Source: Alphaproteobacteria bacterium (lineage in GTDB: Bacteria; Pseudomonadota; Alphaproteobacteria; Rs-D84). Taken from it: a stretch of DNA of 38,739 nucleotides. This document shows, piece by piece, positions 5,202 to 18,469 of this stretch. The stretch spans positions 1-38,739 of the forward strand of contig JAFGMU010000015.1 in the NCBI GenBank assembly GCA_016927395.1. Reading direction: 5' to 3'. The notes below the pieces were generated by a model that had not been told where the DNA came from, searched no databases, and saw nothing but the letters and a program-made list of their open reading frames with translations. The number at the start of each line of letters is the position of its first letter. Positions within the stretch are counted from its first letter, which is position 1. The position numbers were made by a program, and so were the translations under genes.

Positions 5202-5286
5202 GGGCATATGGCGGAATTGGTAGACGCGCTAGTTTCAGGTACTAGTGGGGCAACCCTTGGAAGTTCGAGTCTTCTTATGCCCACCA
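5202..5286 (+). tRNA. tRNA-Leu(CAG)
   Basis: Acceptor GGGCATA/TATGCCC, anticodon loop TTCAGGT, long variable arm, T-loop TTCGAGT, encoded CCA. Confidence 0.92.
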
Positions 5287-5294
5287 AATATTCT

Positions 5295-5370
5295 GGGGTT
5301 GTAGCTCAGTTGGTAGAGCGCTGCGTTCGCAATGCAGAGGTCGTGAGTTCGAATCTCATCAGCTCCACCA
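5295..5370 (+). tRNA. tRNA-Ala(CGC)
   Basis: 76 nt; acceptor GGGGTTG/CAGCTCC, anticodon loop TTCGCAA, T-loop TTCGAAT, CCA. Confidence 0.92.
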
Positions 5371-5427
5371 AAACGAATTCCAAGTAAACCTTGTTACGCA
5401 GGGTTTAAATTATTTTACGGTGGATCT

Positions 5428-5467
5428 GGTCTTGTGGCGGAATGGTAGACGCTGAGGACTTAAAATC
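5428..5467 (+). pseudogene. 5' 40 nt of disrupted host tRNA-Leu(UAA), left island junction
   Basis: ggtcttgtggcggaatggtagacgctgaggacttaaaatc differs at 1 position from first 40 nt of intact tRNA at 5603; similarity then stops. Confidence 0.9.
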
Positions 5468-5545
5468 TTATGGATTGATTGACAGCAACACAAAACAATC
5501 CGGCATAATCAAAGGGTTATTTGTAATTCCGGATTATGGAAAAAC

Positions 5546-5567
5546 TTGTGGCTAACATATGGCTAAC
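5546..5567 (+). repeat. Subterminal direct repeat, left copy (candidate integrase arm-type site)
   Basis: ttgtggctaacatatggctaac, identical 22 bp at 15559-15580. Confidence 0.8.
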
Positions 5568-5602
5568 TTTTGAAATAAAGATTGGCCGAAATTGGTGGAT
5601 CT

Positions 5603-5689
5603 GGTCTTGTGGCGGAATGGTAGACGCTGTGGACTTAAAATCCATTGGCTATTGCAGCCGTGCGGGTTCAAGTCCCGCCAAGACCACCA
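5603..5689 (+). tRNA. tRNA-Leu(UAA), intact, inside the island boundaries
   Basis: 87 nt, acceptor GGTCTTG/CAAGACC, anticodon loop CTTAAAA, variable arm GGCT-ATTGC-AGCC, T-arm GCGGG/CCCGC, CCA. Confidence 0.92.
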
Positions 5690-5699
5690 GAAAACTGCA

Positions 5700-5728
5700 C
5701 CGTTCGGAAATCCCGAACGGTATTTTTT
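5700..5728 (+). terminator. Intrinsic terminator of the island tRNA-Leu
   Basis: CCGTTCGGaaatCCCGAACGG followed by tattttttat. Confidence 0.8.
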
Positions 5729-5839
5729 ATTTATAAATGTTAGCCACAGACCCCGCAGCTAACTTTTCAAGTTTAATACAACCTTGCATTCCAACGTCGA
5801 TTAAAGTAAAATTGAATAAAATAATTAAAGGTGTAATTC

Positions 5840-7366
5840 ATGGCTAAAATATTATTAGCAGGCCCAGGTACGGGCAAGACAACAAAAATTAAAGAATTAT
5901 GTGCAGAAAAAGACGCAAGCGAATTATTGATCGTCTCTTTTACGAACGCGACCATTGAAGACTTGCAAAACGATGTTGAAAAATTGAGTCCACAAAACTG
6001 TAAAACATTACATAGTTTGGCATTTCAACTTTATAAACATTTTTCCGCCGCCCCACAGTATGTTTTATCGAGCGAAGAAATTACATTTTTAGAAAAACTT
6101 GCCGATACGGATGACAAATTTCTATGGCTGATCAAAGAACTAAACTGCATAACTTTTGACACCATGATCTCCGAAGCTATTCAATTGTTAAAAAATAATC
6201 CCGAAGAATGTCAACGGTTCTTTGCAGGAAAAAATCTTTTTATGGCCGACGAAATTCAAGATTTCAATACCAAGGAATTTGAATTGGTTACGACAATAAT
6301 GTCATACATACCAGAAACTATATTATTGGGTGACGACGACCAATGCATTTATAAATTCAAAGGGTCTACACCGGAAATCGCCATCGCGGCATATAACGAT
6401 AACGAAGTTATTGAACACCATCATAAATGCTATAGATGCCCCAAAACAGTAGTTGAAGCAGGAACAGCATTATTGACACATAACACCACCCGAATTCAAA
6501 AAGAGTGGCATTTTATTGAAGATAAGGCGGGAAATATATCGTTTGTGAACAAGTCTAATTTGTCAGATATGTGGCGTTACATAAAAGACACTATTGCCGA
6601 AATAAAAATACATACTCCTGATGCTAGTTTTATGGTGCTTTATCCATACGGGGCATTTGTTGACGGATTGGAAGATGTGTTATCAGAAGTCGGCATTGAG
6701 TGCCTGATTGACGAAAAAGAAAAAACCGCTGGCATACGCCTGCGACACAAAATTATGGCAATGTGGGATCAAAACTCGCACAAGGAGCTGTCTATCTTGC
6801 TGTACTTTATTTTGTCCATATATCGTTCAAAAAAAGCGAAAATAATTATGACCTCTCTTTGGAACACAATTTATCAAAATGCTGTTTCCGTGAATAATTT
6901 AATCGTATGGGGCAAAGAAAACGGAATCGCTGATATTGAAAAAATTGAATCCGGTGTTGCGAAAGAAAAGATTATCGCTGATTCCGCCGGCAAAATAACC
7001 GAAAGTTTCTTTGATAACAATTATTACGACGACAAACCAATATTTGACAAAGAAAAAGTGAACTTTTTAAGCATTCACAAATCAAAGGGCTTGGCAGCGG
7101 ATTACGTTTTTATTGTGGGATTACAACAGCACGTTTTACCGCGTAGTGGATTGTCAAAAGCTGAACACGAAGAAGAACGCAGAAAATTGTTTGTCGCAAT
7201 AACAAGAGGCAAAAAAGGTGTATATCTTATGGCATCACAGTGCCTCCCAGGACATTTTACACACAAACTTTTCTTGCAGGACATAAAGCACGTGTGGAAT
7301 GCGGACAAAACGATAAAGTTACCTGCGTCTCAATTTATTTCTGAAATGGGTTTGGCGGCGATTTAG
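5840..7366 (+). CDS. Compact UvrD/Rep-like superfamily 1 helicase
   Basis: 508 aa; motif I GPGTGKT, motif II FMADEIQDFN, motif III LLGDDDQCIYKFKGS, motif V LSIHKSKGLAADYVFIVGL, motif VI KLFVAITRGKKGVYL. Confidence 0.88.
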   Translation: MAKILLAGPGTGKTTKIKELCAEKDASELLIVSFTNATIEDLQNDVEKLSPQNCKTLHSLAFQLYKHFSAAPQYVLSSEEITFLEKLADTDDKFLWLIKELNCITFDTMISEAIQLLKNNPEECQRFFAGKNLFMADEIQDFNTKEFELVTTIMSYIPETILLGDDDQCIYKFKGSTPEIAIAAYNDNEVIEHHHKCYRCPKTVVEAGTALLTHNTTRIQKEWHFIEDKAGNISFVNKSNLSDMWRYIKDTIAEIKIHTPDASFMVLYPYGAFVDGLEDVLSEVGIECLIDEKEKTAGIRLRHKIMAMWDQNSHKELSILLYFILSIYRSKKAKIIMTSLWNTIYQNAVSVNNLIVWGKENGIADIEKIESGVAKEKIIADSAGKITESFFDNNYYDDKPIFDKEKVNFLSIHKSKGLAADYVFIVGLQQHVLPRSGLSKAEHEEERRKLFVAITRGKKGVYLMASQCLPGHFTHKLFLQDIKHVWNADKTIKLPASQFISEMGLAAI

Positions 7367-7401
7367 TAAAACTAAAAGAAAAACAGACTTTATCTGCTCT
7401 T

Positions 7402-8142
7402 TTATTCAAACACACGATCTTTTCCCAACATATCGCGGATATTCTCAATGTGCTGATTTTCCGTGTCGGTATTTTCGCCATTTTTAACCGCGTCTTGTAA
7501 AACACGCATCACCTCGCGTTTGTCGGTGTAATTGGCCGGTTCGTTATTTTCCATAATTTCATATATAACATCGCATACCCGATGAGCCTTGGTAACATAT
7601 GTTCGCCGCGGCACCATACTGATGTCTTTCAATTCGCAATTGCCATAAAAAACAATAATTGAATAGAATGGTACTTTTTCCCGACAAAGTTGTTTTTGCA
7701 ATTCCAAAATATGGCGGTTGTTTTGCATAATTGGATTATAAAATCGGTATTTATCGCGGCCATACCCCATAATCTGCATCCAATTATTTTGATTGCCACG
7801 ACCAAATATCCAACCGCTGTAATCTTTGATCTCAAACACCAGAATACCCACTTTGGTAGGAACGACAAGGTCAATCTGCGAAAAATCGCCCCGGGGCCTT
7901 TTAACGTATAAATCGTGATATATTGTGGGGGCGGGAATGCCATATTTCAAAAGTTCAACAACCAAATCCCGTTCGGCCCAAGTTCCACGATCGGCAGACG
8001 TTACGGTTTCCATCAACTCGCGATTTCGCGTACTTTCGAAAAACTTCCATTTATACCAGTTATTATTTGTCCGTCGCGTTTTACGAACAACAAACCATAC
8101 CATAACGGTAAAAACGACTATAACCCAAATTGCATTTTCCAT
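7402..8142 (-). CDS. Membrane-anchored NERD-domain (nuclease-related) protein
   Basis: 246 aa; N-terminal TM helix; DFSQIDLVVPTKVGILVFEIKDYSGWIFG NERD core. Confidence 0.8.
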   Translation of the reverse strand: MENAIWVIVVFTVMVWFVVRKTRRTNNNWYKWKFFESTRNRELMETVTSADRGTWAERDLVVELLKYGIPAPTIYHDLYVKRPRGDFSQIDLVVPTKVGILVFEIKDYSGWIFGRGNQNNWMQIMGYGRDKYRFYNPIMQNNRHILELQKQLCREKVPFYSIIVFYGNCELKDISMVPRRTYVTKAHRVCDVIYEIMENNEPANYTDKREVMRVLQDAVKNGENTDTENQHIENIRDMLGKDRVFE

Positions 8143-8158
8143 AATGTATCACATAATC

Positions 8159-9583
8159 CTATTTCGCAAAATACATACTTTCTGCCCAACCCACACAACA
8201 AATCCTGGCTAGTTCAGGTTGCGTTTTTGATTCTAATTCTTTTTTATCATAATATGGCTCTAAAAATTCAACCAATTTTTCTTTGGTGCTTTGAGAATAT
8301 GTGACATACAACCAATCATATATTTCCAACATTGTTTTGCCATTTATAACATTTTTTTGTTGCGATTCAATGAATTTTTGTTGGGCATCTTTATGATTTA
8401 TAATATCATTTGCTGATAACTTTTTTATATCCACAAAAGTTTCTGTTCCGTTTTTGAATATAAGGTACAGTTCTTCATTTACTTCATCAATTATATAGTC
8501 GTCCAAAATAGCCGATACTTTTTTTCCTTGAATTGTCGTTTCGTAAACCCTTTTTATAGAATATCCAAGTACTGGTAATACTTTGTATATATTGTCCTCT
8601 ATATCGCCACCAAAATAATCTGGTATTTTAATAGAGTCCCCGAAAGCTGTATGAATATCTAATAAATCGTTATACTTATCCCGAAGTTCTAAAAATCTGA
8701 TAAATTCCGCCCTACTTGAAATCGGCTGAAACAACAAGTGATAGTCTGATTTTCTGAATCCGCGAATTAAAACTGCCGATTGTTCTCTCTCCATCCAAGG
8801 TCTAAAATGATAGGGATTATTCGTTACAAACAAAAAAGCTTCATCCACGTGATCTGCATCTTGTTCTTTTTTATCCACCTGTCTGTCAATATTGTCAAAC
8901 AGTTGGTGCATTTCATTTTCTGATACCAAAGGACAATTTGCATCAATAAAAATTATCTTAGAATATACAAATTGTTTCTTTAATGCCCTGGTCAGTTGCG
9001 TCCAGATATTTATGTTACCAACTGAATCCGTTTCTTTTTTGTTGCGTAGTTTTGCTTCGACTGAATATTTATTGCCCGTTCTTCTGTTGGTCGCCACAAA
9101 TTCAGGGTGCTGCTCATTCAAATCTTGTTCGTTTTCCAATTCAATGTTATATCCCGCATAAACAAATACAGAAAATACAAACAACTCGTACATTGCACCG
9201 TGAAAGAACCTTTTATCCCGCAGTCTTTTAAGCATAATTTCTTCTAGTTTTGCATTGTTCCCGACGAGAAATAAATAATATGCTAATTTTAACAATGATG
9301 CTGCAGATCCATTTAGCGGTGCTTGGAATAATCCGTGTTTGTCTACAGTTGCATTTTTTTGCAAATCCCCCATCTCTTTGAACCACCGCAGTATTATATG
9401 CTGTTCATTGTCGGATAATTTACTCTGTTCTTGCAACCATTTATAACCAAGCTTAGTTTTCAAAAATTGAATAAGAAAATCGTGAAATGTTTTACCATTA
9501 AATTCAAATGGTATTCGGCCGACAAAAACCCAGTTTTTATTTCCGCATTCGGTTTTAATAATTGGACGGCCTTTGAATATCAT
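8159..9583 (-). CDS. Putative PD-(D/E)XK-like protein of unknown function
   Basis: 474 aa; FHGAMYELFVFSVFVYAGYNIEL...HPEFVATNRRTGNKYSVEAKLRNKK resembles E...ExK nuclease core; 16 bp upstream of the NERD gene. Confidence 0.6.
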   Translation of the reverse strand: MIFKGRPIIKTECGNKNWVFVGRIPFEFNGKTFHDFLIQFLKTKLGYKWLQEQSKLSDNEQHIILRWFKEMGDLQKNATVDKHGLFQAPLNGSAASLLKLAYYLFLVGNNAKLEEIMLKRLRDKRFFHGAMYELFVFSVFVYAGYNIELENEQDLNEQHPEFVATNRRTGNKYSVEAKLRNKKETDSVGNINIWTQLTRALKKQFVYSKIIFIDANCPLVSENEMHQLFDNIDRQVDKKEQDADHVDEAFLFVTNNPYHFRPWMEREQSAVLIRGFRKSDYHLLFQPISSRAEFIRFLELRDKYNDLLDIHTAFGDSIKIPDYFGGDIEDNIYKVLPVLGYSIKRVYETTIQGKKVSAILDDYIIDEVNEELYLIFKNGTETFVDIKKLSANDIINHKDAQQKFIESQQKNVINGKTMLEIYDWLYVTYSQSTKEKLVEFLEPYYDKKELESKTQPELARICCVGWAESMYFAK

Positions 9584-9677
9584 TTTATGCCCATAAATTC
9601 CTTTATAATGCTCGTTTTATCATACATTAAAACGTTGCAAATTCAAGCATTATAAAAATGATAAAATACACTGAACA

Positions 9678-9815
9678 CTAGTATTTTAGAACATTGTTAA
9701 AAACAAAATTTATAATCTGGATCAAGTTATCCCGGATCTTTACTATTTCTGCGTCAGGCAAATGGTTCAGTTCGGGCAGGTATTTTCTGCATTCTTCCAC
9801 ACTCATTGCCGCCAT
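9678..9815 (-). CDS. Small protein (45 aa) paralogous to the upstream small ORF; below ORF-track length cutoff
   Basis: Minus-strand reading MAAMSVEECRKYLPELNHLPDAEIVKIRDNLIQIINFVFNNVLKY* ; resembles ISLAEMRKYIINLDVTDSQLVALYDLMTEIAFMLLEDK of the neighbouring ORF. Confidence 0.6.
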   Translation of the reverse strand: MAAMSVEECRKYLPELNHLPDAEIVKIRDNLIQIINFVFNNVLKY

Positions 9816-9951
9816 TGTTTATTCCTTTGTCTTCCAACAGCATAAATGCGATTTCCGTCATAAGATCATACAACGCAACCAACTGTGAATCAGTTACATC
9901 GAGATTTATGATGTATTTTCGCATTTCTGCCAAAGATATTATTTCACACAT
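9754..9951 (-). CDS. Small protein (65 aa), unknown
   Basis: Begins 3 nt after the lipoprotein stop; C-terminal part overlaps the 45-aa ORF in another frame. Confidence 0.55.
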   Translation of the reverse strand: MCEIISLAEMRKYIINLDVTDSQLVALYDLMTEIAFMLLEDKGINNGGNECGRMQKIPARTEPFA

Positions 9952-9954
9952 TCA

Positions 9955-10743
9955 TTAATATTCTTCGTCTGGTTTGATTGAGGAAAGGCGTTTCAATTTC
10001 AAAACAGTTTTGGTCACCCCAGTTGTTGCAGTATATTGATATGTTCCAACATTCTCAAAATATCCGCCCTGAATACGTTGACTATCAACGGCACCAGAAT
10101 CTGTATTATTTTTGGATATAAAATATACATCATTCAAAGTATGATGACCAAATCGGGAATCGGGTGTTATTAAAGTGCCACCACTAGTTTGTTGCAAAAC
10201 TACAAATTCGCCAAGTTTGAAACCACAGTTTTTTGGAACGGTTCCCATTGTGTAAAGAGCATATATGCCATATTCATCATAAGAACATAATTTTTTACCG
10301 ATTTCCTTTTCTATTTTTTGGATCTCGGCCATTTGTTCCTTTTCAGCGTTTTCTTCTTCAATCCGCAATTCCTCTTGTTTGACTAAGTAGTTTTCATATG
10401 CTTTTACAGACCCTTTTTCACAAACGTAAGCATTCGTAAATTTATCCAATTTCCCGCCATCAGCAAATTTATAGTTTCCGAAAAACAGTTGTTCTTCCAA
10501 TGCCCGGGCATTTCGGTCAAATTTGCAATTGCTGTTGCCTGGGCCGCTTATTACATAATCGCCAAATTTCAACAAATCAGCATTCGTATACTGGCTATTT
10601 TTCATATATTCAACATCTTCGTTCGCAATACAAAAAGCCTCAGCTTTTTCATAAGTGCTGTTTTTATTTACGGTGGCTTTCATACAGGTATATGGTTTGG
10701 CACACCCGGCCAAAAACAAGGCCAATACAATATATTTTTTCAT
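9955..10743 (-). CDS. Putative lipoprotein, unknown function
   Basis: 262 aa; MKKYIVLALFLAGCAKPYTC has a lipobox-like LAGC. Confidence 0.75.
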   Translation of the reverse strand: MKKYIVLALFLAGCAKPYTCMKATVNKNSTYEKAEAFCIANEDVEYMKNSQYTNADLLKFGDYVISGPGNSNCKFDRNARALEEQLFFGNYKFADGGKLDKFTNAYVCEKGSVKAYENYLVKQEELRIEEENAEKEQMAEIQKIEKEIGKKLCSYDEYGIYALYTMGTVPKNCGFKLGEFVVLQQTSGGTLITPDSRFGHHTLNDVYFISKNNTDSGAVDSQRIQGGYFENVGTYQYTATTGVTKTVLKLKRLSSIKPDEEY

Positions 10744-10755
10744 ATTTACTATCCT

Positions 10756-10983
10756 TTATTTATCGTTGGTTAGCCATTCGGCAATATCGTTGACATTTGT
10801 CAAGATCAGCACTACCAGCACAATAATCTCAACGAATATCTGACCTATTACAAAATCTTTCGTTATATTTTCTACGAATGGGATATTTGATACCCAACTG
10901 ACTATTATTCCAGTCAGCAGTATAAAAGTTGATAGCCCAGCGACGATTCCGAAAATATGGTTTATTATCTTTTTCATTTTCAA
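10756..10983 (-). CDS. Small membrane protein with two predicted TM helices
   Basis: 75 aa; two hydrophobic segments; 12 nt from both neighbouring genes. Confidence 0.7.
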   Translation of the reverse strand: MKMKKIINHIFGIVAGLSTFILLTGIIVSWVSNIPFVENITKDFVIGQIFVEIIVLVVLILTNVNDIAEWLTNDK

Positions 10984-10995
10984 ACTCCTTGTTTT

Positions 10996-11247
10996 TTATT
11001 GTTTTTCTCTGATAACGTTTGTTTGGGATTTCGTTATGGCATATTTGATAAACTCCGTTGAATATTTTCCATATTCGGCAGAATCAATTAAGCCCAAAGC
11101 AAACCATGTTTTAATTGCAATCAGACCACCATTGTAAAAATTATCCCAAACCGTGGCTGGATAAAATCCATCTAGTGGTTTGATTACTTGGCGTCTGAAA
11201 ACTTTTTCAATTTTTGATTTTTCAATAATAATGGTTTCTTTCTGCAT
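10996..11247 (-). CDS. Small protein, unknown (MQKETIIIEKSKIEKVFRRQ...)
   Basis: Best start is ATG at 11247 (AAGGAG about 8 nt upstream) rather than the 95-aa call, which begins inside the terminator/RBS region. Confidence 0.7.
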   Translation of the reverse strand: MQKETIIIEKSKIEKVFRRQVIKPLDGFYPATVWDNFYNGGLIAIKTWFALGLIDSAEYGKYSTEFIKYAITKSQTNVIREKQ

Positions 11248-11469
11248 ACCATAAACTCCTTTTTGTATAAAAAAGACCACCATTTGAAAGTGGTGGTCGG
11301 GAGTTTTCCGGTCAATAAGATAACCCCGTTGCCTTTGGGCGAACCCTGTTATATAGCAACAGCATCCCGACCATAAAGTCGGGACATTTGAAAGTTAAGT
11401 CTTATTTGGGCGGAAAAACCCGTTCACACTAACAAATGTCTTTAACGTCCCACAAACAGCAGGGCGTTG
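11248..11469 (-). promoter_or_regulatory. Structured 5' leader / attenuator-like RNA upstream of the small-protein operon
   Basis: Consensus promoter upstream, mutually exclusive helices, intrinsic terminator 11275-11298 directly before the RBS. Confidence 0.65.
11268..11298 (-). terminator. Intrinsic terminator at the end of the leader
   Basis: RNA GACCACCA-CTTTCAAA-TGGTGGTC-TTTTTT. Confidence 0.85.
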
Positions 11470-11474
11470 GTAGA

Positions 11475-11503
11475 ATTATATATGTATACGAGTTAAAAGT
11501 CAA
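11475..11503 (-). promoter_or_regulatory. Sigma70-type promoter
   Basis: Minus strand TTGACT-17 nt-TATAAT. Confidence 0.8.
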
Positions 11504-11515
11504 AATATAAGGAAA

Positions 11516-12472
11516 TTATAAAGAAAATGGCAAAACGTCCCAATTCCAACCATTCGAAACATCGGTCCAAGTTTTCACAAATGCATTTCCCGGTTCAGAG
11601 TGTGTATGCTTTTCCATCTTAGGTATATAAAAAGATTTCAGATCTGGATTATTAAGACTAATCTCAAAACTTTCATTAATAATATTGGCAAAGTTATCAT
11701 TACCTGCTGTAATTTCATATGGCCCATATTTGACACAAAACATTATTATATTCGCTGCAATAGCATTAAGACAGTTTTCAAGCGTAGATTTATTAAAATT
11801 GTCATTTTTTGAATGTTTAGTTTGATTATAAGCATCATACCAAGGTAAAGACGTTGTAGGATTTGTAGCATCCCAAGATTCAAAGGGACGAAGCACTTTT
11901 ATGAAAGGGTGTCGTGAAAATCTTATTTCAAATTCTGCTAGAAACAATGCGGATTTTAATCGCACATATTCGTTTGTTGTCGGTCTTGTTATACTTAAAC
12001 CAGATAATTTCAAATATTCTCCCCAAGAATTTTCAATTTCTGTACAGGAAAGAATCAAAAGTTCGCGTAGCTTGTGGCCATATGTATTAAGACTGTCAGC
12101 AGTGGGTTCCAAATACAACAGAATCTCATCAAGTTTTTGCATTAAAATCTTTAAGTCTATTTTTGATTTTGCACGTTCATCTATCTTTGTTTCTAGAACA
12201 GTTTCAATATTTACCCTCAAACCGGGCCTCCAAACATACTTGATTGCCTGTCCGACATCAAGATCAGTTTCAATTGATGAATCAGCACCAGGTAAAGCCA
12301 AAATATTTATACCAGTTTCTCCTAAAATTACGGGTCTGTCCATATGTTGTAAGTATATTCCTCCAATACTATGAGGAATTGATATGATTTCTTTACCATT
12401 ATCATATACCGCACATACAAATTCATTTCTTGATCCATAAGGACAGTTTTTATATATATAAGCTTTGGGCAT
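11516..12472 (-). CDS. Unknown protein, C-terminal HEPN-like helical region
   Basis: 318 aa; WYDAYNQTKHSKNDNFNKSTLENCLNAIAANIIMF resembles the YN..KH motif of HEPN-like helical proteins. Confidence 0.6.
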   Translation of the reverse strand: MPKAYIYKNCPYGSRNEFVCAVYDNGKEIISIPHSIGGIYLQHMDRPVILGETGINILALPGADSSIETDLDVGQAIKYVWRPGLRVNIETVLETKIDERAKSKIDLKILMQKLDEILLYLEPTADSLNTYGHKLRELLILSCTEIENSWGEYLKLSGLSITRPTTNEYVRLKSALFLAEFEIRFSRHPFIKVLRPFESWDATNPTTSLPWYDAYNQTKHSKNDNFNKSTLENCLNAIAANIIMFCVKYGPYEITAGNDNFANIINESFEISLNNPDLKSFYIPKMEKHTHSEPGNAFVKTWTDVSNGWNWDVLPFSL

Positions 12473-12519
12473 AAAGTCTCCTAAAATTACGTATTATTTT
12501 CAGTCTATAAGATATTTTA

Positions 12520-13191
12520 TCAGTCCACAAACATTATTTCCGCCGTTTCGCGGGATTTTGCATTTGGATTGAATCCGTATTTATTCCCGACACCACGTCT
12601 TTCTTCGGCGATTTGGCACGCTATGGCCGCGATTTCTATTTTTATAACAATCCCCAACCATTTCATATTTAACCCCTGGTATCGCCTTGATTTGTGTTCA
12701 TATCGCATTAAATTATATTCCAGTCCAATCAGCCGCGTTTCCCAATGATTTAATTTGTTAGCCGCACCCCGGATTGCCCGTTTGCGGGTTGTTTTTGCAA
12801 GAATTGGGATCTGTTCCTGTAATTCAATAATACGTGATTCACAGATTGCGATTTGATCTGAATACCATAGTTTCACGCGATCGACCATTTGCATTTTATT
12901 ACGGTATCGTCCCAATAATTCTTCGGCACCCATTTCGGTTGGATTTCCGATTGTTCCGTGCCGTATATCTTCGGCCTCGGCATCACGCCATTCTTTTTTT
13001 GTTTTGCAATTCCGTTCTGCGACTTCGGCAATTTTTATTTCGTGCATTTCCAATTTGGTTAGGGGACGAAAATCAAATTCTTCTTGTTTTTGGCACTTTC
13101 TATTTTCTTTCATGGCGATTCTATTTCTGGAAACCGGGATTTCCATTTCAGCATATTCTTGCCAATTTTCAAAATTTAATTGCAACGACAT
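12520..13191 (-). CDS. Unknown island protein, charged and helical
   Basis: 223 aa ORF in line with adjacent minus-strand genes. Confidence 0.6.
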   Translation of the reverse strand: MSLQLNFENWQEYAEMEIPVSRNRIAMKENRKCQKQEEFDFRPLTKLEMHEIKIAEVAERNCKTKKEWRDAEAEDIRHGTIGNPTEMGAEELLGRYRNKMQMVDRVKLWYSDQIAICESRIIELQEQIPILAKTTRKRAIRGAANKLNHWETRLIGLEYNLMRYEHKSRRYQGLNMKWLGIVIKIEIAAIACQIAEERRGVGNKYGFNPNAKSRETAEIMFVD

Positions 13192-13267
13192 TTGGTGTTT
13201 TCCTTTCCGCGTGGGGTGCGGGTTGATAATGAAAATTTATTAAAAACTGTTCCCGTGTAATTGTTTT

Positions 13268-13308
13268 ATTTATGCGTGATGGGCACGGGCGTTCCCGCAC
13301 GCATAAAT
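13268..13308. repeat. Inverted repeat (11-bp arms) upstream of the 223-aa gene
   Basis: atttatgcgtg ... cacgcataaat. Confidence 0.75.
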
Positions 13309-13330
13309 TATGTGAAATTCTTGGGGATTT

Positions 13331-13522
13331 TTAACCGGTGGAAACCCGGTCGCATTTTTGTTTTTCAAGGTATGTACGAACGTCGGTCATCGCATACAGG
13401 ACGCGACGCTTTACCTTTATCCATTGGATTGGGCATTCGCGATTTGTCCGCCAACGTTCAATCGTGTTCTTTTTGACTTTCAACAAAGCCGCCAATTCGT
13501 TTGTAGTAATGTAATCTTGCAT
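13331..13522 (-). CDS. AlpA/MerR-like HTH, putative excisionase or regulator
   Basis: 63 aa; DYITTNELAALLKVKKNTIERWRTNRECPIQWIKVKRRVLYAMTDVRTYLEKQK. Confidence 0.8.
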   Translation of the reverse strand: MQDYITTNELAALLKVKKNTIERWRTNRECPIQWIKVKRRVLYAMTDVRTYLEKQKCDRVSTG

Positions 13523-13622
13523 TTGAAACCCCTTGTTAAAATTTACAAGGGCATAATAAATCCAAAAACAACCGGATTTATTCGCTTGTGAACAAAAGTG
13601 TATGTATGTTCACAAACGCACA

Positions 13623-14309
13623 TCAATTAAATGTGTTATCTGCACGAATCCAACCATAAATCGTGTTGAACTCTGCGTGTTGTGTCAACGGAGTTTTCCA
13701 ATTTTCAGGGTCATATTTGTCCCGATAAATTTTATCCGCGATTTGACTTTTGCTGATTGATGGATTCTTTTCACGTATTTTGCGGGCTTGTTCCAATGCC
13801 CATATCTTTATCGGCCTTGTTTTATTTGCCTTGCCATCGCCACTCTTTTTATGCGATGCAGATTCCACCAATAAAAATGCTGCCGAGAAATCCACATATC
13901 GACTTTCCCACGCGGAAATGATTGGTTGCATTTTTTCTGTTTTTTCTTTAATTGAAACGCTATCTGCATTTTCAAAACCGATAAAAATATCGGTAAAATA
14001 CAGCATATTTTGGATAGAGCGTGCCGCACCGGCCAAATTCCAATCTCGTTTCGTCAACCCGGATTTTTCAAAACCCAATTTCGTCAGTTCTGTTTTTTCA
14101 ACAATGTTTTTTGCCAATTGTCCAATGCTGATTTTTGCCCGTTTCTCATACATTGATATTGCATTGCGGGTCAACGCAATCACACGATCATATAAAACAT
14201 CTATATTTTCGCAATGTTCGGTCGCCCATTTGCGACGATCCTTGGATTCTTGAAGATTCAATACATTTTGCAATCGCTGCCCGACAAGTTTTATTTCTTC
14301 ATTGATCAT
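13623..14309 (-). CDS. Unknown island protein overlapping the integrase stop
   Basis: 228 aa; start overlaps integrase stop by 4 nt. Confidence 0.65.
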   Translation of the reverse strand: MINEEIKLVGQRLQNVLNLQESKDRRKWATEHCENIDVLYDRVIALTRNAISMYEKRAKISIGQLAKNIVEKTELTKLGFEKSGLTKRDWNLAGAARSIQNMLYFTDIFIGFENADSVSIKEKTEKMQPIISAWESRYVDFSAAFLLVESASHKKSGDGKANKTRPIKIWALEQARKIREKNPSISKSQIADKIYRDKYDPENWKTPLTQHAEFNTIYGWIRADNTFN

Positions 14310-15493
14310 TTTTTACCCTTTTTCTTTGGCTTGACCAATGCGGCCATATCGTCAATCGCGGCCTGTATGCTTGCACGCACCGGGTCAACTTCCACCTGCA
14401 TATAAACGGCCGCGGCGGCCTTGGACTTATCGCCCAACGCCTGTTGTATAATCGTTTCATTGGTGGCACGACGGGTCAGCCAACTGCCATATGTTCGCCG
14501 CAGGTCGTGCATTCTAAAATCTTCAATCCCGGCACGTTGTAAAAAATTACGCCATGACGTTCGCATATCAACAATGTGTGTCTCTGACTTTACAGGGCTT
14601 GGAAATACCCAATCACTTGTTGCTCCTGCTTTCATTTTGCATAACAAGGCAAAAGGCTGATCTGCCAACACGATTGTCTGTGGATCATTATTCTTTGTGT
14701 CTGCGATATAAATAACCCGACGATCAAAATCCACATCTGACCATTTAATCGTCGCCATATTTCCGCGACGCTGACCACACCATAAGCACAGGTATATGTA
14801 ATTTTTGAACAACTCGTTTTCTTCGGATTCCAACGCATTGAAAAATCTTGGCACCTCGTCCGGCAATAAAAAACGGCGGCGGGATTTTTCACGAAACATT
14901 TCAATCCCTCGGGCCGGATTTACGCCATCCGGCAATCCCCACGCCAATGCACGATTATACATATGCCGAATAAGTGCTAACGCACGATTTGCACGATATA
15001 TGCTTTTCTTGCCCATTGTTTTATGCCAAATTTCAATATCCGTATGCGTTATATTCAACATCTTTTTATTATGAAATTGAGCCAATTGAATCCGAAACAA
15101 TGTTTCGTTTGTTTTTTGTGATAATGGCTTGGTTGATAATTTGGAATGACGTGGGGTATAAACTTTTTCAAAAAATTCTTTTAATGTCATATCTGCACGT
15201 ATTTTGCGTTTTTCGTCATTTGGATTTTTGCCTTTGTCCACCACTGGCATATTTTCGGATAAAGCCCGGCGCGCATCTTTCAAATTCATATGATCTGTAT
15301 CACCCAAACGAACAAACATAACCCGACCGGCGATGTTTTTTATCAAATAATAAATTTTACCGGTTTCGCCAATTCGCAGGGCAAGGTTTTTTGTGCTGGC
15401 ATCGCGGACGGTATATCGTTTGCCTCTTGGGGCAAAGGACAGTTTAGCAATACGGGATTCCGTAAATTCAAATTTTCTTGGCGTTTCTTGCAT
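14306..15493 (-). CDS. P4-like tyrosine recombinase/integrase
   Basis: 395 aa; N-terminal arm-binding-like domain; catalytic CGQRRGNMATIKWSDVD, RMHDLRRTYGSWL, VYMQ tyrosine. Confidence 0.92.
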   Translation of the reverse strand: MQETPRKFEFTESRIAKLSFAPRGKRYTVRDASTKNLALRIGETGKIYYLIKNIAGRVMFVRLGDTDHMNLKDARRALSENMPVVDKGKNPNDEKRKIRADMTLKEFFEKVYTPRHSKLSTKPLSQKTNETLFRIQLAQFHNKKMLNITHTDIEIWHKTMGKKSIYRANRALALIRHMYNRALAWGLPDGVNPARGIEMFREKSRRRFLLPDEVPRFFNALESEENELFKNYIYLCLWCGQRRGNMATIKWSDVDFDRRVIYIADTKNNDPQTIVLADQPFALLCKMKAGATSDWVFPSPVKSETHIVDMRTSWRNFLQRAGIEDFRMHDLRRTYGSWLTRRATNETIIQQALGDKSKAAAAVYMQVEVDPVRASIQAAIDDMAALVKPKKKGKK

Positions 15494-15558
15494 TTTTTAC
15501 ATCCGGTCGGTTTATAATCACATCGTGTCTGTTTTATATTATGGTTAATTTTTATCGG

Positions 15559-15580
15559 TTGTGGCTAACATATGGCTAAC
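15559..15580 (+). repeat. Subterminal direct repeat, right copy
   Basis: Identical to 5546-5567. Confidence 0.8.
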
Positions 15581-15701
15581 ATTTCAGATAAAAATCAAAG
15601 ATCATTATATAAAGGAGTATACAGGTAGAACAGGCGGATAGCAAGGGATTAAAGCAATTTTACCAAAGTTTAATAAAGTCCCGAAAAACCACAATTCGGA
15701 A

Positions 15702-15759
15702 GACTTAAAATCCTTTGATCATTGCGATCGTGTGGGTTCAAGTCCCACCAAGACCACCA
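15702..15759 (+). pseudogene. 3' part of disrupted host tRNA-Leu(UAA), right island junction
   Basis: gacttaaaatc + ctttgatcattgcgatcgtgtgggttcaagtcccaccaagaccacca. Confidence 0.9.
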
Positions 15760-15844: not shown

Positions 15845-18469
15845 ATGAGAATAGTGAAAAAAGTTATTGTTTTTATTACATGTGTGTTAATTTTTACCGG
15901 CTTTGCCAGCGGGACTGTTCGCGACAACAACACATTAACAAGACAAAAAAATACTACACAAATATCAAATTCCAGAACGGCTGCAAACAATCAAAAAAAC
16001 ACATCCGGCAGAAATGCTGTTTCAAAATCTTCTGTGCATGAATCATCTGCCCGGAATGTTTCTGGTGCACGTACTGCGGTCGTACAAAAAAGTAATAACA
16101 ATTCAAAAAATATTTCGTCCAGGTCCGCAACAACTTCTATAAAAAATGAAAGAACAACTATTGCACGTGCAGCAACAATAAACGATGATAATTCTTCGCT
16201 TTCTGAAACGCGTACTGGTGCTGCATATGAACAATGTAAAAATGCTTATTTTACATGTATGGATCAATTTTGTACTTTGAAGAACGAAGATTACAGACGT
16301 TGTTCATGCAGTGATCGTGTGTACGATTTAACAAATGTAAAAACTGTTATGCAGGACGCAAACGACAAATTAACTACTTTCACAGAAAGTCTGGATTCGG
16401 TTGGCATGACTTCAGCCCAGGCAACATCTATGAAAACTGCATCAGAGGGCGAAAGTGCATTAACATCAGATGGTTCTTCATCCAAAGCATTATTACAAGC
16501 AATTATGAATTCCATTCGTGGCGAAGATACAAATGTTGGTGGAAAGTTTTCTGACCTTAACAGCATAAATATTTCTTTTGATACCACTAATGCTTTTGGA
16601 ACAATGGATGCAGGTCAAGCAATTGCAACATATAATGGAAAAAATCTTTATACAGCTGTTTATTCACAGTGCAGAAATGCTGTGAAACCTGATTGTAGTG
16701 ACGCATCTTTACAACGCGCTGTAACTGCATACTTGATGGCAATTGAACAAGATTGTAACACTGTTCAAACTTCCATAAATGAAAACAAAAAAACTCTGAC
16801 GGCCGCAGTTCGCGAAGGAAATGCTATGTTGGATTTGGCGCGAGTTGAAAATCGTAAAAATAATAACTCTGACGATATGAGCACATGTATGAATAACGTT
16901 GAATCTGCAATACTAAGCGAAGAAGTTTGTGGTGCAAATTATCACAAGTGTCTGGATAATGGTGAATTCATAGATATTTCAACAGGTACACCAATCGCAG
17001 GTGTTGTTAAATTTTATGAATTGGAAAATTTGTTAACATTTAACGATAGTGCCAATGTTGCGGATCAAAAACTATCAAAAGTTCCAAATAACCGAACATT
17101 TGTAAAAAACTTTGAAAACCGTACAAAAAAATTTGCAAAACCAGCTTTGAACAAATGTACAGAAAATGCTGATCAAGTATGGTCTGATTATTTAGACAAA
17201 GCTATGTTAGATATTTACTATGCACAAAAATCTAAAGTTGATGAAATTAAACAGGGTTGTTTTGATTTTGTGTCAGCATGTTATGTAAATGGTGACAATG
17301 CTTTGACATCTGCTATGAATGAACTGGTTGGCGATTCCAGTGTTGTTTTACAACCCGATAAAATTACACTTAACTCGGCTGTATGCAAAGAATACGTTGA
17401 ATCATGCGATAATATGTTTGATGGTAATATTGTAAAACAATACATAAATTCCAGAAAAGATACAGATACTTTGACTGCATGTCGCGCAGTTGCAAAACAG
17501 TGCTTTGATAAATTTGGTGGAACAAACTATGAAAACTTTTATTACCCATCCAGTGGATTATTCACAATTGGCGAAGCTGCAAAATGGTTTACGCTCTGCA
17601 ATGGTGTTGACTGTTCCAGCTATGTTTCAGAATGCGCAAAGGAATTGTCTGAAATTGAATCTTGTTCTTCAAAAGACATGATAACACGTGCATTCGGCGG
17701 ATTTGATTTAATCCCTGTAACCCCAAATAACCAAGGAGACGAAATATACGATCCAAATAGTACCATAAAAGATTATGGACTTTTGGATGCAAATAATACT
17801 TTGGCACAGCGCAGTCTTCGACCATCTGGGGTTGCCACAGAAATTTATTATCAAATTATTGATAAACTTTCTACACAATGCACAAACTTGCAGGGTAGAT
17901 TTGTCGAATTACAATTTCTTAGAAAAGATATGTACGAAAATGACAACATATGTCTGGCAACATTCAAAAACGGCGGGTGCCCATCAGGTGAATTTTGTGA
18001 TGCGATAACCAGAAAGTGCAATATAACAACAGAACAAAGTTGCTCAACAAATGGTGAATACTATGTTTTGGCTGATTTATATGGCGTCGGTACAAACGAA
18101 GATATATGCCCACGCGATTACAGATTAAACGTTGATACAAAATCATGGGGTGCATGTATCTGTTGGGAAAATGGTGCCAGACGTAGTAAATGGGGAACAA
18201 GTGTAAAATGTGTTTCAGAACTTCCTGTACCCAGTTCAACAACTGATGGTCAAAGTTGCAATGATATTTCAGGAATAGGAGTTGATAATCCACCAACAGC
18301 AACTATTACACCAGTAAAAACAAATTGGTGCACACAAAACAATATGTCATCTACTAAACAGGTTTGTCCTTTTAAATCAACAGGTACAGCAGGTGGAAAA
18401 TGTTTCTGGAGCAACATTACTTCGGTAGAAAAAATTAATGTTGAAAAAATACCTGATGTTATATTGTAA
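15845..18469 (+). CDS. Large secreted Cys-rich protein, unknown function
   Basis: Signal peptide from ATG at 15845 (MRIVKKVIVFITCVLIFTGFASG), Ser/Asn-rich linker, many spaced Cys pairs. Confidence 0.85.
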   Translation: MRIVKKVIVFITCVLIFTGFASGTVRDNNTLTRQKNTTQISNSRTAANNQKNTSGRNAVSKSSVHESSARNVSGARTAVVQKSNNNSKNISSRSATTSIKNERTTIARAATINDDNSSLSETRTGAAYEQCKNAYFTCMDQFCTLKNEDYRRCSCSDRVYDLTNVKTVMQDANDKLTTFTESLDSVGMTSAQATSMKTASEGESALTSDGSSSKALLQAIMNSIRGEDTNVGGKFSDLNSINISFDTTNAFGTMDAGQAIATYNGKNLYTAVYSQCRNAVKPDCSDASLQRAVTAYLMAIEQDCNTVQTSINENKKTLTAAVREGNAMLDLARVENRKNNNSDDMSTCMNNVESAILSEEVCGANYHKCLDNGEFIDISTGTPIAGVVKFYELENLLTFNDSANVADQKLSKVPNNRTFVKNFENRTKKFAKPALNKCTENADQVWSDYLDKAMLDIYYAQKSKVDEIKQGCFDFVSACYVNGDNALTSAMNELVGDSSVVLQPDKITLNSAVCKEYVESCDNMFDGNIVKQYINSRKDTDTLTACRAVAKQCFDKFGGTNYENFYYPSSGLFTIGEAAKWFTLCNGVDCSSYVSECAKELSEIESCSSKDMITRAFGGFDLIPVTPNNQGDEIYDPNSTIKDYGLLDANNTLAQRSLRPSGVATEIYYQIIDKLSTQCTNLQGRFVELQFLRKDMYENDNICLATFKNGGCPSGEFCDAITRKCNITTEQSCSTNGEYYVLADLYGVGTNEDICPRDYRLNVDTKSWGACICWENGARRSKWGTSVKCVSELPVPSSTTDGQSCNDISGIGVDNPPTATITPVKTNWCTQNNMSSTKQVCPFKSTGTAGGKCFWSNITSVEKINVEKIPDVIL

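Follow-up and report, generated by a model that had tools for sequence, protein, structure and literature searches.

A P4-type island that splits a host tRNA-Leu(UAA) gene and probably replaces it with a complete tRNA of its own

Islands that integrate into the anticodon loop of tRNA genes, as collected in the Islander database, restore their target with a tRNA fragment borne on attP, the attachment site of the element (PMC4383910). Another strategy, known as tRNA-dependent lysogeny, was shown experimentally for actinobacteriophages (mycobacteriophages) by Guerrero-Bustamante and Hatfull in 2024 (PMC10865867). There the host attachment site (attB) lies in a tRNA gene, no tRNA is rebuilt at the left and right junctions (attL and attR), and the element brings a whole tRNA gene of the isotype that it disrupts. 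That report states that the evolutionary relation of tRNA-dependent to restoring systems is unclear. Two further reports (PMC8631192 and PMC11476347) describe vTRX32-1-like Rhizobium prophages and Sinorhizobium sequences, likewise alphaproteobacterial, in which an element-borne isoacceptor replaces an inactivated tRNA; in the Sinorhizobium tRNA-carrying, phage-related sequences the replacement is closer to genes of unrelated species. Here we analyzed a contig of 38,739 nucleotides (nt) from an alphaproteobacterium (GenBank assembly GCA_016927395.1, contig JAFGMU010000015.1), referred to below as the window. It contains an island of 10.2 kb (5468-15712) inserted in the native tRNA-Leu(UAA) gene, at its anticodon loop. 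We put at roughly 0.87 the probability that this is an integrative island with a P4-type integrase that splits the sole host tRNA-Leu(UAA) gene and supplies a complete copy of its own instead of a 3' half.

The strategy as such is thus already known, and the island resembles tRNA-dependent lysogeny in several ways. The integrase is of the tyrosine family with arm-type binding (PF00589, PF13356, and paired arm-like repeats), attB lies in a host tRNA gene with a short core (11 bp here and ~10 bp there), neither attL nor attR rebuilds a tRNA, the island has its own complete tRNA gene of the isotype it disrupts (5603-5689), and the disrupted tRNA is otherwise single copy, as judged from a tRNA census of an assembly that is 92% complete. 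In the actinobacteriophages, too, the restoring mode may occur among relatives of the same integrase (PMC10865867). However, the island shows no phage structural genes and has a P4-type (Arm-DNA-bind_3) integrase, targets of islands of this type include Leu(UAA), Arg(CCG), and Thr(GGU), and the carried tRNA lies beside attP, co-oriented with its target. Moreover, the need for the tRNA has an experimental basis in the phages, whereas here it is deduced from sequence. We therefore regard the island as working like tRNA-dependent lysogeny, without counting it as a lysogeny system. The rhizobial cases differ in being described as phage or phage related, and the vTRX32-1 tRNA lacks an att motif, whereas the carried tRNA of the island keeps the anticodon-loop core. 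With ordinary anticodon-loop islands it shares a tyrosine integrase, the site of crossover, and cores in direct repeat, but it does not restore its target.

Compared with the open-licence PMC literature, what may be new is that non-phage P4-type islands use this mode, that it arose repeatedly, and that there is evidence for the descent of at least one case from the ordinary mode; an earlier report elsewhere is possible. A mechanism with experimental support only in phages would thereby be extended to small islands in which no phage structural genes are seen. It would also mean that horizontal replacement can reach essential tRNA genes and that island finders which assume a restored tRNA will miss whole-tRNA elements.

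The split gene, its empty site, and the carried tRNA

The native gene stands in a tRNA cluster, downstream of tRNA-Leu(CAG) (5202-5286, plus strand) and tRNA-Ala(CGC) (5295-5370, plus strand), both called by ARAGORN. Its 5' half (40 nt, 5428-5467) and its 3' half with CCA (47 nt, 15713-15759), both on the plus strand, join into an 87-nt tRNA-Leu(UAA) that ARAGORN accepts, and the original prediction was right that this is the length of the intact gene at 5603-5689. The 11-bp core shared by the junctions, GACTTAAAATC, comprises the anticodon loop plus two stem bases on each side. It occurs three times in the window, as a direct repeat in attL (5457-5467) and attR (15702-15712) and within the carried gene (5632-5642). 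Neither junction of the island forms a tRNA. The sequence following the attL core of the window did not significantly resemble a decayed tRNA 3' half (p 0.1-0.3), and a search for a decayed 5' half at attR found none.

The carried tRNA (5603-5689, plus strand) is accepted by ARAGORN as a complete 87-nt gene and lies 135 bp inside one end of the island, between the left arm site and the cargo, with an intrinsic terminator directly 3' of it (5699-5721, plus strand). The native and the carried gene form direct repeats of 49 nt (98% identical) and 58 nt (84% identical), and the 49-nt repeat extends 9 nt upstream of the tRNA. The two 9-nt leaders, GGTGGATCT, at 5419-5427 and 5594-5602 are identical, which hints at local copying between both 5' halves. 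A putative integrase arm site of 22 nt, TTGTGGCTAACATATGGCTAAC, is present at 5546-5567 and in direct repeat at 15559-15580 (both plus strand), and similar arms occur in three related elements (in genomes G169, G054, and G147). Once the ends are joined, these repeats flank the attP core in the order arm-core-arm. Because the arm sites flank the outer cores and the carried tRNA lies beyond the left arm, the tRNA is placed inside one element. This bears out the earlier claim that the intact copy is a distinct whole tRNA within the island.

The native and carried tRNAs differ at 10 positions (28, 42, 46-48, 54-56, 61, and 75), which form five changed pairs, exactly as had been reported. The original prediction further took this pairing as a sign that the outer halves belong together. 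That argument holds for one pair, 28-42, which bridges both halves; the variable-arm and T-stem pairs all lie within the 3' half and are therefore uninformative about the matching 5' half, and ARAGORN also accepts both native/carried chimeras. The pairing argument taken alone is thus thinner than it appears, and the firm evidence for a single disrupted, formerly functional gene is the empty site in G001, a relative from the same genus. There the order Leu(CAG)-Ala(CGC)-Leu(UAA) is uninterrupted, with an intact tRNA-Leu(UAA) at L005:6523-6609; after it come a terminator homologous to that of the window and the same gene. The original prediction had expected the native anticodon stem at an empty site. 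The G001 tRNA shows four differences from the joined native halves and six from the island copy, and it is mixed: its anticodon-stem and T-stem pairs are as in the island copy and its variable arm is as in the native halves, so that it is not clearly of the island type. For this reason G001 alone does not name the donor of the island tRNA.

The assembly (779 kb in 46 contigs, the window being contig 22; 92% complete) belongs to an alphaproteobacterial lineage with small genomes. A census with covariance models, combined with reading of the anticodons, gave 41 tRNAs with exactly one intact tRNA-Leu(UAA), that of the island, as had been suspected. The complete genome of a relative, G004, likewise has a single tRNA-Leu(UAA), and genomes of the family as a rule give one strong match each. 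UUA makes up about one-quarter to one-half of the leucine codons in sampled genes, and both the host and the island use TTA often in their genes. Together these data strongly suggest that the cell depends on the island tRNA. Such a dependency ("addiction") would be limited to imprecise loss, because an island that excised precisely would leave behind a rejoined native gene that looks sound.

We propose that the P4-type tyrosine integrase acts at the anticodon loop of the single tRNA-Leu(UAA) gene of the host, recombining it with the short core of attP. As no 3' half is carried to mend the target, the host gene would be destroyed and a whole tRNA-Leu(UAA) supplied in its place. Transcription of the carried gene more likely comes by read-through from the native tRNA operon, possibly aided by a weak promoter-like sequence at 5479-5509 (TTGACA-19nt-CATAAT), whose spacing exceeds the limit of the promoter scan used. 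The carried tRNA would then decode UUA codons genome-wide, and precise excision would rejoin the split halves. If the island were lost without such rejoining, or if an element integrated without the tRNA, the outcome would be expected to be lethal.

Further whole-tRNA elements and the origins of the mode

For integrases of this type in the same family, 40 neighborhoods, together with those of genomes G167 and G169, were screened on both strands for intact tRNAs and orphan halves; L084, L094, L105, L110/L201, L196, L197, L199, and L330 were left unclassified. The same plan recurs in four more elements of the family, each with two orphaned native halves and a single complete tRNA of matching isotype inside: one in Leu(UAA) (G167, 4.7 kb), two in Arg(CCG) (G054 and G147, of 6.5 and 7.8 kb), and one in Thr(GGU) (G170, 7.0 kb). 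Their shared cores exceed the 7-nt anticodon loop by a few bases at most. Joining the native halves still gives a recognizable tRNA in all four, and no intact isoacceptor copy was found besides the carried gene. Directly upstream of the latter, inspection by eye shows a TTGNNN-16/17-TATAAT-like sequence, a match to the consensus only. The G167 element has the same layout as that of the window, with unrelated arm sequences. With the window included, 5/5 complete elements have a carried gene of the disrupted isoacceptor, in the orientation of its target. The carried and native genes differ in both halves, at 17 positions in G054 and G147 and at 15 in G167. The anticodon stem next to the core also differs between carried and native tRNA in all five, which might reduce self-integration and could equally be ordinary divergence.

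In four further elements, one orphan half lies beside a contig end: G169 (Leu), G162 (Gly(UCC)), G024 (Arg(UCU)), and G190 (an orphan 5' half of Arg(UCU), from another family of the same order). The ordinary mode, with both the restored tRNA and the displaced 3' half seen, was found in 18 others, and 14 more look ordinary as seen from one end or incompletely and may yet include whole-tRNA elements. Within one bacterial family, both modes are found among related integrases. In a class-wide sample, restoring elements were found wherever a classification could be made. Among the unclassified loci, an intact Thr-GGU gene (L201:2763-2836, in G168) and an intact Val-CAC gene (L330, oriented 16872-16946) each lie directly 5' of a P4-type integrase, and no displaced 3' half was found at either; these are possibly islands that restore a 5' half, or older events.

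On a tree of 49 integrases inferred by maximum likelihood, three changes between modes are needed to account for the whole-tRNA elements, compared to a mean of 8.3 with shuffled labels. The first origin is a clade of seven (support 100/100) that includes the window and has Leu, Gly, and two Arg genes as targets; the nearest relatives of the window integrase (63 to 41% identical) all come with unrestored halves. The second is G167, which adjoins an ordinary Met-targeting group, and the third is G170, on a long branch whose placement is unsure. Within the G167 element, immediately next to its 5' junction (L066, G167:C11, ~21263-21220, minus strand), there is a degenerate tRNA-Leu 3' half that matches at 23/38 positions (p ~5e-5 against 36,668 local windows), and many of the mismatches are transitions. 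Four lengths were tried, and the three other than 38 gave p values of 0.0003 to 0.001. This sequence is likely a relic of an ordinary, restoring ancestor. The acceptor stems of the G167 target (GGGGATA) and its carried tRNA (GGTCTTG) differ and the chimeras fail in ARAGORN, which means that an element with only a 3' half could not have restored the gene there and a whole tRNA can.

Taken together, the three-change tree and the relic offer a checkable answer, and evidence, that in at least one case restoration came first and the whole tRNA later. Carriage of a whole tRNA would free an element from having to match the halves of its host, with the conserved 7-base anticodon loop nearly sufficient, and would then open new hosts and target switches that an island with a 3' half could not use. 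We give about even odds to the broader proposal that whole-tRNA carriage is a derived strategy reached repeatedly by P4-type islands from the 3'-half-restoring mode. In that view a single integrase lineage could move among targets (Leu, Gly, and two Arg genes) and pass between hosts whose tRNA halves are incompatible, replacing essential tRNAs with foreign ones, and the G167 relic would be a fossil of the switch.

Alternative explanations

The three copies of the core would fit two tandem elements, a small remnant (5468-5642) and a larger island (5643-15712), with the inner tRNA, a junction of the right kind, as the ordinary restored end of the latter. A tandem insertion would not, however, duplicate a complete 5' half together with its 9-nt leader, the arm-like repeats at 15559 and 5546 flank the outer cores and so define one attP, and the G167, Arg, and Thr elements follow a one-element plan with unrelated intervening sequence. 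We consider a tandem arrangement quite improbable, in line with the original claim of one element. An assembly chimera is also unlikely, as the same plan is present on five independent contigs. A more serious rival, although still an unlikely one, is that the island at first restored the tRNA in the ordinary way with a 3' half and that a later local duplication of the host leader and 5' half (49 nt, 98%) built the inner gene. The inner 5' half and leader match the native ones except for one base, the 3' halves differ at nine positions, and recombination between the 49-nt repeats would give back the arrangement of an ordinary island. This is a question of origin rather than of present function. 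Host copying is not general, since the carried genes of G054, G147, and G167 differ from the native ones in both halves, and the unrestored halves of all the nearest integrase relatives indicate that the whole-tRNA mode is probably older than this insertion. Mobile elements can also carry tRNAs for codon supply or against tRNA-cleaving defenses, as discussed in PMC10865867, and the inner tRNA could be such a passenger or extra copy beside an insertion decaying in a redundant gene. The single intact Leu(UAA) gene in the census, the usual one strong match per genome in the family, and the agreement of carried and disrupted isoacceptors in every complete case make this very improbable.

Several points weigh against an island that replaces the sole tRNA-Leu(UAA) of its host. 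A scan found no promoter just upstream of the carried tRNA of the window, and a second Leu(UAA) gene could be missing from the fragmented assembly. Expression of the carried tRNA, the need for it, and excision of the island are all predictions from the DNA sequence. In this host the whole tRNA is not strictly needed, because the native/carried chimera passes ARAGORN and replacement of the 3' half would also do; incompatible halves are thus not a valid reason in every case, and the step from whole tRNAs to a wider host range is based mainly on the G167 element.

Integrase, cargo, and related genes

The P4-type tyrosine integrase with Arm-DNA-bind_3 (14306-15493, minus strand) matches PF00589 (7e-24) and PF13356 (1.6e-7). 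Directly downstream, with a 4-base overlap, an uncharacterized protein is encoded (13623-14309, minus strand), and a gene of similar size occupies the same place in G054 and G147. The cargo includes a UvrD/Rep-like SF1 helicase (5840-7366, plus strand; PF00580, PF13361) and, all on the minus strand, a NERD nuclease-domain protein (7402-8142; PF08378), a 474-amino-acid protein without a family match (8159-9583), a putative lipoprotein of 262 amino acids (9955-10743; a signal-like start and Cys in the translation, no family above the cutoff), a protein matching phrog_19461, of unknown function, in PHROGs (11516-12472), and a 223-amino-acid protein without a family match (12520-13191). Searches of the island proteins against Pfam, NCBIfam, and PHROGs found no capsid, tail, terminase, or repressor family, and the best IMG/VR integrases, at ≤30% identity over long stretches, identified no phage family. 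By gene content the island does not look like a temperate phage. The cargo was also considered as a defense island and no system was called: the match of the helicase to GajB-type models is no more than that of a generic SF1 helicase, and that of the NERD protein to BREX PglW is weak.

Among the related elements, those in Arg(CCG) encode a Toprim-AAA_25 protein (L077, 12832-14637, minus strand, by Pfam; L074, oriented 12776-14614, minus strand, by eye). This is a P4/satellite-like replication gene, and these islands may replicate outside the chromosome. The Thr element of G170 (L107, oriented 11007-13006) encodes a radical-SAM DUF5131-like protein beside a partner gene.
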